IMG/VR virus record: IMGVR_UViG_3300032006_000041
Span: 1-32,743 of that record
Reading direction: 5' to 3' (one strand)
From: a virus
DNA length: 32,743 nt
Part shown: positions 13,542-32,743 of the stretch, piece after piece
Numbering within the stretch: the first letter of the stretch is position 1
Layout: every line of letters begins with the position of its first letter
Program-made: the position numbers and the translations under genes
Notes under the pieces: generated by a model
Databases searched by the model: none
What the model was told of the DNA's origin: nothing
The model's input: the letters and a program-made list of their open reading frames with translations, nothing else

Positions 13542-13742
13542 TTATTTCTCTTTTCTTTTCTCTATTTCCTCTTCTATTTGATTGATTCTGCTTTGTTCAA
13601 AATGGTTCAACTCATCCTTAATCTTGAGGAAGATATTCTTATAGAAATCTGCCTCATATTTCTCCTCCATCAATTCCCTGTCACTTAAATACTGCACCCC
13701 CCTATTGTGGATGAAATAAAACCTTTCCTTTTCTATTCCCAT
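13542..13742 (-). CDS. Small coiled-coil protein, unknown
   Basis: A 66-residue protein that is charged and helical throughout, the last 30 residues probably a coiled coil (QIEEEIEKRKEK end). I start it at the ATG at 13742, which overlaps the upstream stop as TAATG with GGAG before it; an upstream frame extension would lie inside the previous gene. No family recognised. Confidence 0.6.
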   Translation of the reverse strand: MGIEKERFYFIHNRGVQYLSDRELMEEKYEADFYKNIFLKIKDELNHFEQSRINQIEEEIEKRKEK

Positions 13743-14119
13743 TAAAATAACTCCAATTGCTCCCCTTCTGGTTCTTCTCCCTTGATGTTCCAATATTGCA
13801 ACGGAAGCATGTATTGCTTGTTATGCCCCCTGTCCATTGTCTGGCACTTCTCTAAGAAGGTTGCAGAGTCCACGGAATACTCTTTGCCAGTATCAGATGT
13901 TTGAACTGTTATCTTGTAAACATAATTATCCTGATATGGAGATGTTTTAATCTCCTTGGTATCCAGAACCAAGTTCCTGAACATACTCACGTCAAAACAC
14001 CATGCAGGGGGCTTCTGGAGCATGTGCTTCTCCTCTGATACCCCAGACTTGATTAACACCCCTGCTTTCAACTGAGCCACCACCCTGCCGTCTTCTGTTC
14101 TGATTGCTTTCTCCCTCAT
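13742..14119 (-). CDS. Early protein with C-terminal beta-clamp-binding motif
   Basis: A 125-residue protein of unknown fold. The N-terminal part is basic, the middle beta-rich (NYVYKITVQTS). The last residues are GEQLELF followed by the stop. QLxLF at the extreme C terminus is the canonical pentapeptide by which bacterial proteins such as polymerases, MutS and Hda bind the DnaN sliding clamp. The phage could use it to bring a function to the clamp or to compete with host clamp users. No other domain is recognised. The ATG overlaps the stop of the AcrVA2-like gene (ATGA). Confidence 0.6.
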   Translation of the reverse strand: MREKAIRTEDGRVVAQLKAGVLIKSGVSEEKHMLQKPPAWCFDVSMFRNLVLDTKEIKTSPYQDNYVYKITVQTSDTGKEYSVDSATFLEKCQTMDRGHNKQYMLPLQYWNIKGEEPEGEQLELF

Positions 14120-15528
14120 GTCCTCACCTTTGCTATCCTTTTTATTAACTCTCCCTCACCTTTCATATAAGTCCTTATATACTTCCACTTCCAATCCTTT
14201 CTGCCCATTCCAATCCTCTGCTTTCGGTTGTGACCGCTTACAAACCAAGACCCCCTATATTTAATTTTTCTTTCACTTCCATGCGTCACATTACTTGGAA
14301 GATACGACCCCCTGAATTTCATTCTTGGAATGGTTATGACGTTAATCTTGTCTGTGTCTATTTCAGTGCCGTCTTCCCTGTTTGCATACCTTCTTCTCTC
14401 TGCCCTACTAAGGTCACGTTCCACAACCTCAGATGCTCCACTTGATAGGAACACTAATAAGTGAATGACATAATCAGCAAGTTCTTTTGAGATGGCAAGC
14501 ACCTCAGACTCTTCACTGGCAGTCAATTTATCACGGAGGGCATTAGGAATACTTTCATCCCATAACATGTCTTCATCCCTGAGAGGGTATTCAATTCCAA
14601 ATGGGATTTTCATAAATCGGATAGTGTCTCCATCTTCAGAAGCGTCTACAGAATCCCCACTGTCATTTTCCCAGTTTTCCTGATACTTAATCATGTTATT
14701 CCAGTTTCTGTTATCGAATGTGAGGTGAACCCCATCTCCGAATTTCTCAACAAACATCCACCTCAGAAATCTGCCGCCTATAAGTTTCACTGGATTCTCA
14801 AAGATAAATAACATCTTATCTAATGGCATCATTTTGTCATCTAAGATATGCCGCTGTACTGGCATGGCTTGCGAAACCTCCATGGACTCAGCATCCCAGT
14901 GGTAAGTTGCCTGTACCTCTGCCATTGTTTGGACAATTTCAAAGAAGTATCTGGGGGCTTGCAATTGGGTATAAAAGTCTTCTTCTGTCTCAATCGCTGA
15001 GACATTTGTGCGATTCCATCTGATGGTTGTAATCACGTCTAACCATGTGACTCTTTTAACTGCTTCAACCTGCCACATTTGCCTGATTGGAATCATTCTC
15101 AGAACACTGTCTTTGCTTAACTTCAATGGTCTGCCTGAGATATTCCACTTATGCTCATCATCTATGTAAGCCCTAACCAGTGGGTCATATGCCAGTCTCT
15201 GGTGCATCCCTATGTAGACTTTAGCCAATTCCTGCCATGGGTTTAAATCAGACTCTCCATCTAATTTTCTCTGTGCTAATTGAGCCAGTGAATCTATATG
15301 GTGTTTAGTGTAATCAGGCTCATTGGGTTCAAACTGCCCAAGGCTTTTGATATCTATGTCTCTCTGCCCTACTGTAATGCCAAGGTTGTTTTGGTATAGA
15401 GCGTCAACTTCATCTGTCACAATTTTTCTTAATCTCTCATCTCCACCTTTTAGCCCCCCCATCTTCCAAGTGTTCCCTTTCTTGGGTCTAGTTCCAAATC
15501 TTCCCTTTCCTTTTCTTTTCTTTCCCAT
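14116..15528 (-). CDS. AcrVA2-like large early protein
   Basis: A 470-residue protein. The N terminus is very basic and disordered (MGKKRKGKGRFGTRPKKG). The centre has PRYFFEIVQTM and later FVEKFGDGVHLTFD. A helical segment (LAISKELADYVIHLLVFLSSGAS) is followed by a basic region, and the end reads KIKYRGSWFVSGHNRKQRIG, then aromatic strands WKWKYIRTYMKG. A helical 'llny.lyl.s' segment followed by a C-terminal R-G-x-W...H...W.I.pY.kG module is the layout I recall for AcrVA2, the Cas12a-blocking anti-CRISPR, and its many phage and plasmid relatives. The similarity is remote and judged by eye. Most relatives have no tested function, so anti-CRISPR activity is not claimed. Confidence 0.45.
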   Translation of the reverse strand: MGKKRKGKGRFGTRPKKGNTWKMGGLKGGDERLRKIVTDEVDALYQNNLGITVGQRDIDIKSLGQFEPNEPDYTKHHIDSLAQLAQRKLDGESDLNPWQELAKVYIGMHQRLAYDPLVRAYIDDEHKWNISGRPLKLSKDSVLRMIPIRQMWQVEAVKRVTWLDVITTIRWNRTNVSAIETEEDFYTQLQAPRYFFEIVQTMAEVQATYHWDAESMEVSQAMPVQRHILDDKMMPLDKMLFIFENPVKLIGGRFLRWMFVEKFGDGVHLTFDNRNWNNMIKYQENWENDSGDSVDASEDGDTIRFMKIPFGIEYPLRDEDMLWDESIPNALRDKLTASEESEVLAISKELADYVIHLLVFLSSGASEVVERDLSRAERRRYANREDGTEIDTDKINVITIPRMKFRGSYLPSNVTHGSERKIKYRGSWFVSGHNRKQRIGMGRKDWKWKYIRTYMKGEGELIKRIAKVRT

Positions 15529-16482: not shown

Positions 16483-16794
16483 CTATTGGAGCAACTCAAT
16501 CTCCTGAATTAAAAAGGCTCTTGCCCTACTCCCCTTGGTATAGACCTTGACCACGCCGCCTTGGAGTTTCTCAGACTCTGTGGCGGCTTGCTCCAGTTGC
16601 CCTAAAGCCTTTTTGAGCCATACTGGAACTGATGTCTGTGTACTCTTAACTTCATAAACATGTGTAGCATTTTCTACATCTGTGTGAGGTCTGGATTTAT
16701 CCAGATTCCTCACACCTCCAACTGATGCGGCTACTCTTCTTTCATAAGACTTGCCCCTGTTTCTATTGTTAGCATTTCTTTTTTTAATATTCAT
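16483..16794 (-). CDS. PD-(D/E)XK nuclease, Holliday-junction resolvase-like
   Basis: A 103-residue protein. The order of elements fits the PD-(D/E)XK fold: Glu in GKSYERRVA (about residue 18), Asp in PHTDVENATH (about 39), then YEVKS (E-V-K, about 48-50), with a basic N terminus and GGVVKVYTKG as a later strand. Phage Holliday-junction resolvases of this class have this size and would resolve branched DNA before packaging. The ATG overlaps the helicase stop (TAATG), and an intrinsic terminator follows. Confidence 0.7.
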   Translation of the reverse strand: MNIKKRNANNRNRGKSYERRVAASVGGVRNLDKSRPHTDVENATHVYEVKSTQTSVPVWLKKALGQLEQAATESEKLQGGVVKVYTKGSRARAFLIQEIELLQ

Positions 16795-18098
16795 TAGAAT
16801 CCCTCATACCTCCATCTTGCCTGTCCACTCTCATCAGTAAAAGACTTGAAATCATCATGTCTGCTTAATGATGTCTGCAAGGAATCCAACTTGTCATAAT
16901 GGATAGCCTGTCCAATCTCTTTAGTGGTCAAGCCACCATCCTGTTCCAGAATTGCCACTATGTCAGCGTCTGCACCCCCTGTATAGAGGTTTATTACCTG
17001 CTTGGGGATAGATTCCCCTCTGCTCAATGAACTCTTCTTAATATCAATATTTTCCACACTTATAAGGGATGGTTCATAAGTAACTCTGAAAGCCTTGGGG
17101 TCTAATAATTTTCCCACATTGGTTTTCCTGTGATGCAGGGCAATTTCCATGTAGTTCCCATCAGTGTTTGGGGCTTTCTTTAATTCAAAAGTATTTCTTG
17201 GCATGTTAGTCCAGTAAACACTTCCAAACGGATTTCCATTACTTCCAACCTTGGTGACATGAGCCAGTGTTAATGTGGTCAGCGGTTGCTCTGAATCAGT
17301 CAAACTTCTCAGGGCATTAAAAAACTTTAAAGTAGAATTTGCGTTCTCTGGTTCTCCACCACATGCAGGCCCTGCTGAATCAATCAAAAGGAACTTAATA
17401 TCTAGGTCTGCAATCTGGTTTTTAAGGCTCTCCACGTCCTGATATAGAGGAGCAGAGCAATATCTGTAGTAAACCATCCTGCTTCCATTGCCAAGCCCAT
17501 TTACTATGTCCCTGCTTCTTCTGTATGTCTCTTCCCATGAAGTCTCATAGTCCAGTACCAGAGCATTGCCCTGAATTACTCCAAAACTATTCTCCACTCC
17601 ATGTCCATTATGGACTCCAGTGGCAATTGATAATCCTATTAAGGATTTCCCAATTCCACCATCTCCAAATATGAGAGAAGGTGTTCCCTGATAGCAAAGC
17701 CCTGTGACCATCTCTGGGGGCTGTTCTGGGCTTGTCCTGTCATTAAGGTCAAGGACAGGTTCACCTGCCCTTTCAATCTCCAAGACCATCTTGGCAACTT
17801 GAAGAAACCTCTGCTTCCATTCTTCTTTGGAACGCTCTGACACATCACCTAATTCTGTAATGATGCTTCTGGGTGACCTGTTCAGAGTCCATTTCATGGG
17901 ACTCAGAAGATATGCTCCCCCAAAATTCATAAAGTCTTCTATTTGAATTTCACAGTTCGGGTCACCCCCTCTGGACGTTTCCACCCTGTCCAGAGTCCAC
18001 TTCATATCTGGGGAATCTATGTCCCCCCAGATGACCTCATATCGTGTGCCTACTTTTATTATTTCAGGGGTAGACAACCCTCCATCATAATCATTCAA
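16794..18098 (-). CDS. RepA-like replicative helicase (RecA fold)
   Basis: A 434-residue protein. Walker A is GDGGIGKS (residues 145-152). An acidic strand end VLDYE lies at about 182, Walker B is FLLIDSAG (about 236-243), and the sensor segment LTLAHVTK is near 276-283. This is the RepA/AAA_25 arrangement of hexameric helicases. The C terminus (DADIVAILEQDGGLTTKEI and following) is a winged-helix domain. It probably unwinds DNA at the phage origin and loads the host replisome, since no polymerase or primase is encoded. The start is TTG with AAGGAG six bases upstream; there is no in-frame ATG nearby. Confidence 0.82.
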   Translation of the reverse strand: MNDYDGGLSTPEIIKVGTRYEVIWGDIDSPDMKWTLDRVETSRGGDPNCEIQIEDFMNFGGAYLLSPMKWTLNRSPRSIITELGDVSERSKEEWKQRFLQVAKMVLEIERAGEPVLDLNDRTSPEQPPEMVTGLCYQGTPSLIFGDGGIGKSLIGLSIATGVHNGHGVENSFGVIQGNALVLDYETSWEETYRRSRDIVNGLGNGSRMVYYRYCSAPLYQDVESLKNQIADLDIKFLLIDSAGPACGGEPENANSTLKFFNALRSLTDSEQPLTTLTLAHVTKVGSNGNPFGSVYWTNMPRNTFELKKAPNTDGNYMEIALHHRKTNVGKLLDPKAFRVTYEPSLISVENIDIKKSSLSRGESIPKQVINLYTGGADADIVAILEQDGGLTTKEIGQAIHYDKLDSLQTSLSRHDDFKSFTDESGQARWRYEGF

Positions 18099-23585: not shown

Positions 23586-23774
23586 TTATGGGCCTCCATC
23601 TCTTATATGTCGTACCAGTAAATATGCAGTTATTGCCAATCCAGTTAGACCTATTCCTAATCCGTATCCTGCTAATCTTTTGCTCATCTTTTCATCCTTC
23701 TGCATTTTGTAAACTCTTTTCTTTAGGTCATCTAACTGATTAAGCAAAAAACTGACATCAGTTTCTTTGCTCAT
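23586..23774 (-). CDS. Small single-span membrane protein
   Basis: A 62-residue protein. Residues 5-30 are a probable coiled coil (DDLKKRVYKMQKDEKMSK), residues 33-53 a transmembrane helix (LAGYGLGIGLTGLAITAYLL), then a basic end. It lies next to the larger membrane protein and the two overlap at the stop/start junction. A holin- or spanin-like role is possible; no family is recognised. Confidence 0.6.
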   Translation of the reverse strand: MSKETDVSFLLNQLDDLKKRVYKMQKDEKMSKRLAGYGLGIGLTGLAITAYLLVRHIRDGGP

Positions 23775-32510: not shown

Positions 32511-32743
32511 CTTGTTCTCCTATGGAGTAATTGTAACTTCACCCATAATTTGTACTGATAACGGAATATCCAGAGTCCTGTAGGCCACTCCTCCAATATC
32601 TGTATACCCTGTTGATGCACTTCCTATTTCTATGTCATTCACATTGCCACTCAGGTCAGAATCACCACGCAATGCACTGTCTATATTTACAATCGCATCC
32701 CATACTTCTAACTCCACATCTTCTCTAATGTCTCTTGATATTT
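32506..32743. repeat. Terminal direct repeat, right copy (contig closure)
   Basis: Second copy of bases 1-238 with two synonymous differences. It continues from the tail tube gene into the tail terminator gene, as expected when the contig end wraps onto its start. Confidence 0.95.
32520..32743 (-). CDS. Tail terminator protein, 3' part (repeat copy)
   Basis: This is the last 74 codons of the gene at 15-449, cut by the window end. It is not a separate gene: its upstream half lies at 239-449 once the ends are joined. The encoded residues are identical to the left copy despite two base changes. Confidence 0.9.
   Translation of the reverse strand, partial: ISRDIREDVELEVWDAIVNIDSALRGDSDLSGNVNDIEIGSASTGYTDIGGVAYRTLDIPLSVQIMGEVTITP

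Follow-up and report, generated by a model that had tools for sequence, protein, structure and literature searches.

The viral record IMGVR_UViG_3300032006_000041 of IMG/VR has been analysed over its whole length of 32,743 nucleotides (hereafter, the window). On its minus strand lies a gene for a protein of 125 amino acids, which starts with ATG and ends in ...EEPEGEQLELF just before a TAA stop codon (Table 1). The tail peptide of this protein, GEEPEGEQLELF, carries a putative binding motif for the host sliding clamp, DnaN. An earlier note on this DNA had reported the GEQLELF end, correctly, and had proposed that it serves as a C-terminal hook for DnaN. Clamp-binding motifs have a Gln at the first position, an aliphatic residue at the second, Leu or Met at the fourth and Phe, Leu or Ile at the fifth; they occur as pentamers or hexamers, often in C-terminal tails (PMC11139829). 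Mobile elements are known to reach the host clamp through such motifs, as described for transposases (PMC4549789) and for TrfA (PMC4980987). The QLELF of the window fits all motif positions, and it is the only strict QLxLF found at a protein C-terminus among the plausible genes of the window. The other strict match, QLDLF (plus strand, position 23642), is internal to an antisense open reading frame (ORF).

Single-protein searches assigned the protein to no Pfam or PHROG family and gave no match among 50,697 phage records; Pfam matches to the PH-domain and PepSY families were weak, under the cut-off, and have been discarded. A profile search of the sequences of the Protein Data Bank (PDB) returned one match, with an E value of 0.86, which is not meaningful. 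One close relative, 94% identical, was found in IMG/VR (locus L001), and a syntenic search through a neighbouring AAA ATPase gene led to L006, the homolog of which is 36–38% identical. Used together, these three proteins opened up a divergent family of 23 aligned viral members, most of them 27–42% identical to the window protein. Only eight columns of this viral alignment are invariant, namely L34, P37, W40, D43, D76, Q102, W110 and Q121, the first residue of the motif. Between W110 and Q121, the viral members vary both in the number and in the identity of their residues. The family is new, with no published description found in the literature searched, most subscription journals lying outside that search; the type of hook is already known.

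The hidden Markov model used to collect the members was truncated at W110, so the tail played no part in their selection. The first motif position is nevertheless Gln in all 23 viral members, the second is aliphatic (L, I or M) in 22 and the fourth is L, M or F in all 23. The tails include QLELF, QLSLF, QLKLF, QMKLF, QLSLFS, QLKMFG, QLNMFS, QLNMFEDI, QLRLI, QLGLPL, QLGLSL, QIGLPL and QIKMGL, and the clamp motif is thus represented in its pentameric as well as its hexameric form. The protein of L021, only 31% identical to that of the window, ends exactly in QLELF. A strict motif, defined as QLxLF or QLxLxL, is present in 15 of the 23 members, against 0.09 expected, and in 10 of the 15 clusters formed at 60% identity, against 0.05 expected; in both cases none of 20,000 tail shuffles reached the observed count. 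A looser form of the motif is found in 18 members. A chance origin of the tail motif is ruled out by this family-wide conservation as compared with shuffled tails.

Relatives were also sought in bacterial genomes. A first scan of genome contigs with the family gave no match. The contigs holding a relative of the ATPase came solely from Chloroflexi or Dehalococcoidia assemblies, and in the four genomes to which the ATPase had led, no family member was detectable. A search with the family alignment, confined to 400 genomes of the Chloroflexota group, gave a match in 10 of them. The eight bacterial members that were fetched have tails about 16–60 residues long, with the motifs QLSLF, QLNLF, QGRLF, QLPLF, QLPLF, QLPLPL, QLSLF and QLHLF. 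Seven of the eight, all except the degenerate QGRLF, thus have a strict motif near the C-terminus (0.018 expected; none of 50,000 shuffles). The alignment used for this search contained the tail, yet the reported matches stop at positions 105–114 of the 116-position model. Judged from the bacterial contigs, the hosts of these phages are likely Chloroflexota, as far as host and host range may be read from sequence.

The C-terminal hook proposed in the earlier note is therefore strongly supported by the Gln common to all 23 viral members, by a motif kept at about 30% identity and with varying tail lengths, and by seven of the eight bacterial members. Conservation argues both for the motif and for its position, and the tail very probably binds DnaN. 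Several observations weigh on the other side. The members are related and the counts are not independent, a difficulty that the clusters and the genome set address in part. The earlier note had counted homologs lacking the pentapeptide as evidence against the hook, and on this point the nearest homolog gives a mixed result: L001 ends in QLRLI, with Ile instead of Phe at the last position. Seen in isolation this tail would speak against the hook, but given the wider family it looks like drift within the permitted motif. Degenerate tails are seen in L012, L016 and L019 (QLGLPE) and in L109 (QAKLL), and further exceptions in L006 (QLRFL) and L079 (QLSFDL). As for the genetic link with the AAA ATPase, the two genes lie 2.6 kb apart in the window, and many loci with a related, more distant ATPase show no detectable family member despite sufficient room, so that a family member is not obligatory for the ATPase.

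AlphaFold2 predicts a confident domain for the window protein, with a mean predicted local distance difference test (pLDDT) of 87.0 over the whole chain and a predicted template modelling score (pTM) of 0.78; the corresponding values for the homolog from L067 are 89.5 and 0.80. The pLDDT falls below 50 at residues 118–121 and 123–125 of the window protein, and at residues 116–120 in L067, and in these models the motif would sit in an accessible, flexible segment. The fold matches of both models are nearly all PD-(D/E)XK nucleases (D212, Hjc, RecU, NhoI/Eco15I, PvuII, DpnI, SPARDA), a convergence between independent models of two distant members that would suit a clamp-tethered DNA-processing protein, either a nuclease of this type or a junction binder, placed on new DNA by the clamp. 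The precedent would be EndoMS/NucS, in which a clamp motif at the C-terminus accompanies a RecB-like nuclease domain and which the clamp stimulates (PMC11109965). On the same side, D43, D/E76, K24 and Q102 are conserved in the family. However, all of the structural matches are weak, the best being 2eo0 (Z 5.9, root-mean-square deviation 4.0, 87 aligned residues) and 2w8m (Z 4.8, 3.8, 87 residues), with a Foldseek E value of 0.003 at best. The family domain, of about 110 amino acids, differs from NucS in that no D...(D/E)xK signature is conserved: none of the aligned members has an acidic residue at position 22, two residues ahead of K24, and D10 is not retained in most members from bacterial elements. 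Moreover, RusA-like resolvase genes already adjoin the family gene in relatives such as L006. Since the canonical (D/E)xK is not conserved, the protein is not classed as a nuclease, and a clamp-tethered processing role appears unlikely. The domain is probably a compact alpha/beta, DNA-binding one, perhaps with a PD-(D/E)XK-like fold lacking the canonical catalytic signature, although non-canonical sites are possible.

The gene neighbourhood bears more directly on function. The 125-aa gene sits in the replication operon of the window. In the viral loci containing both genes, the family gene is always on the same strand as the AAA ATPase, mostly 1–320 bp behind it, and in some cases 1–3 kb behind or 3–6 kb ahead. 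In the bacterial elements it adjoins AAA_25, Prim-Pol or D5_N genes, and several of these contigs hold integrases (tyrosine or serine recombinases). As to the phage itself, the window has a repeat at its two ends: positions 112–238 are identical to 32617–32743 over 127 bases, the segments 15–238 and 32520–32743 are nearly identical, and the same 73 residues are encoded at both ends (second copy from 32520). The record is thus probably a nearly whole siphovirus genome, circularly permuted or terminally redundant, in which an HK97-type head protein, a portal, a terminase and a tape measure were identified. No polymerase, primase or clamp was seen in PHROG and Pfam scans of its larger ORFs, some small ORFs being left out, a result consistent with the remark of the earlier note that the phage has no polymerase.

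Because the gene lies in a replication module and no polymerase was detected, recruitment of the host clamp and DNA polymerase III (Pol III) is the most economical explanation, and we consider it somewhat better than an even bet that the protein acts as a small accessory factor in replication, bringing both to phage DNA. The compact domain would carry the clamp-binding motif on a flexible C-terminal tail and work with the phage helicase/primase module. Through DnaN binding, contact with this partner and DNA binding, the protein would then bring the clamp, and through it Pol III, to the origin or forks of the phage DNA. The recruitment step, with odds only slightly in its favour, is clearly less secure than clamp binding. 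The earlier note had considered recruitment side by side with a shut-off of host replication. In the latter case, competition between the tail and Pol III for the clamp would stall host replication early in infection. The small size of the protein and its strong tail consensus would suit an inhibitor, and there are precedents. The toxin SocB of Caulobacter blocks replication through the usual clamp motif, bound in the DnaN cleft (PMC9690074), but it belongs to a toxin–antitoxin pair, whereas no such pairing is apparent for the family, the context of which is made of replication genes. Gp168 of phage Twort is, likewise, a small phage protein aimed at the host clamp, but it inhibits the clamp by binding the DNA channel rather than the peptide pocket in the cleft (PMC11139829). 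The strongly conserved residues of the folded domain would be needless for an inhibitor peptide. The gene also lies in the phage's own replication module and beside primase/helicase genes in integrated bacterial elements, on contigs with integrases, a setting in which poisoning of the clamp would be detrimental to the element as well as to its host. Inhibition is accordingly rather improbable, and replisome recruitment fits the gene neighbourhood better than shut-off.

Among known systems, TrfA, the initiator of plasmid RK2, is also a replicon-encoded replication protein that uses a clamp motif for host replisome assembly at the origin (PMC4980987). It is an iteron-binding initiator with an internal motif (around residues 137–138), whereas the family motif is in the C-terminal tail of a small domain for which no relationship to TrfA was detected. 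Insertion sequence (IS) transposases provide another mobile-element protein binding beta through a C-terminal QLxLF, with Q1 and the hydrophobic residues 4 and 5 kept despite a variable context (PMC4549789); in contrast, the family has no detected transposase domain and is linked to helicase/primase genes. More tentatively, recruitment might extend to a widespread family of replisome adaptors, linking the interchangeable helicases/primases (AAA_25, Prim-Pol, D5-type) of Chloroflexota phages and integrated elements to the host clamp, on a nuclease-like fold without the canonical catalytic signature. Only for few systems is there detailed knowledge of how polymerase-less phages capture the host replisome. 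The family offers a definite, removable contact point of five residues together with a genetically linked partner, and the bacteria that these phages probably infect are hard to culture.

Table 1. Features of the 125-aa gene and its surroundings in the window
Feature	Positions	Strand	Basis or remark
125-aa protein under study	13742..14119	-	ORF reading and homologs
Folded domain, residues 1–110	13790..14119	-	AlphaFold2 model and 23-member viral alignment
Linker, residues 111–120 (NIKGEEPEGE)	13760..13789	-	Length and sequence vary within the family; model confidence low from about residue 118
Putative clamp-binding motif QLELF, residues 121–125	13745..13759	-	Codons CAA TTG GAG TTA TTT, 13759–13745
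GGAG (13754–13751) and ATG (13742–13740), the ATG overlapping the TAA stop	13740..13754	-	Overlaps the last motif codons
Downstream gene, 66 aa from its ATG	13542..13742	-	More divergent in L001
Upstream gene, 470 aa, function unassigned	14116..15528	-	Weak phrog_15934 match; 81% identical in L001
Resolvase-like gene	16483..16794	-	Weak match (phrog_244, E 0.004), without Pfam match
RepA/RecA-like AAA_25 ATPase	16794..18098	-	Usual neighbour of the family

The 470-aa upstream gene overlaps the start of the 125-aa gene by four bases (ATGA). The GGAG and ATG at the 3' end of the 125-aa gene probably serve the downstream gene, which is probably translationally coupled to it. As GGAG and TAATG overlap the motif codons in the window, the tail might be viewed as a by-product of the Shine-Dalgarno sequence and start of the next gene. 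This explanation is refuted by the family-wide pattern and retains hardly any probability: the motif is kept in L006, L015, L028 and L114–L121 without an overlapping gene start, before the stop or after long linkers, and the tail shuffles exclude an effect of composition. When positions 13542–14119 of the window are compared with L001, conservation is high as far as the motif and then declines steeply, beginning at the motif codons and continuing into the downstream gene, which may mark a boundary of recombination or of relaxed constraint. In L001, the upstream gene is separated from the family gene by an additional 63-aa ORF (L001:1394–1585), which the window lacks.

Control ORFs of the related loci give a measure of the chance level. 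Q[LM]x[LM]F occurs within the last 10 residues of 4 out of 2013 such ORFs of at least 100 aa, all four with a plus-strand motif and all DNA methyltransferases (in L037, L077 and L085/L086, the L086 protein assigned through its near-identity to that of L085). These enzymes, of the N6_N4_Mtase and C5 DNA_methylase types (L037:8479–9192, L085:9816–11111, L086:9816–11111, L077:9632–10741), have the tails RQLKLF, KQMGLF and KQMRLFS. Mom-family DNA-modification proteins (L103:2838–3542 and L108:2566–3246) end in QMSLI and QMTFL, a looser clamp-like motif. The methyltransferase and Mom tails support the specificity of the motif, and they suggest that clamp tethering is a wider, general device of these phages. 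In L019 (2311–5910), genes resembling those of preQ0/7-deazaguanine synthesis and DNA modification (tgt-like, queC-, queD-, queE- and folE-like) were recognized by eye from their translations.
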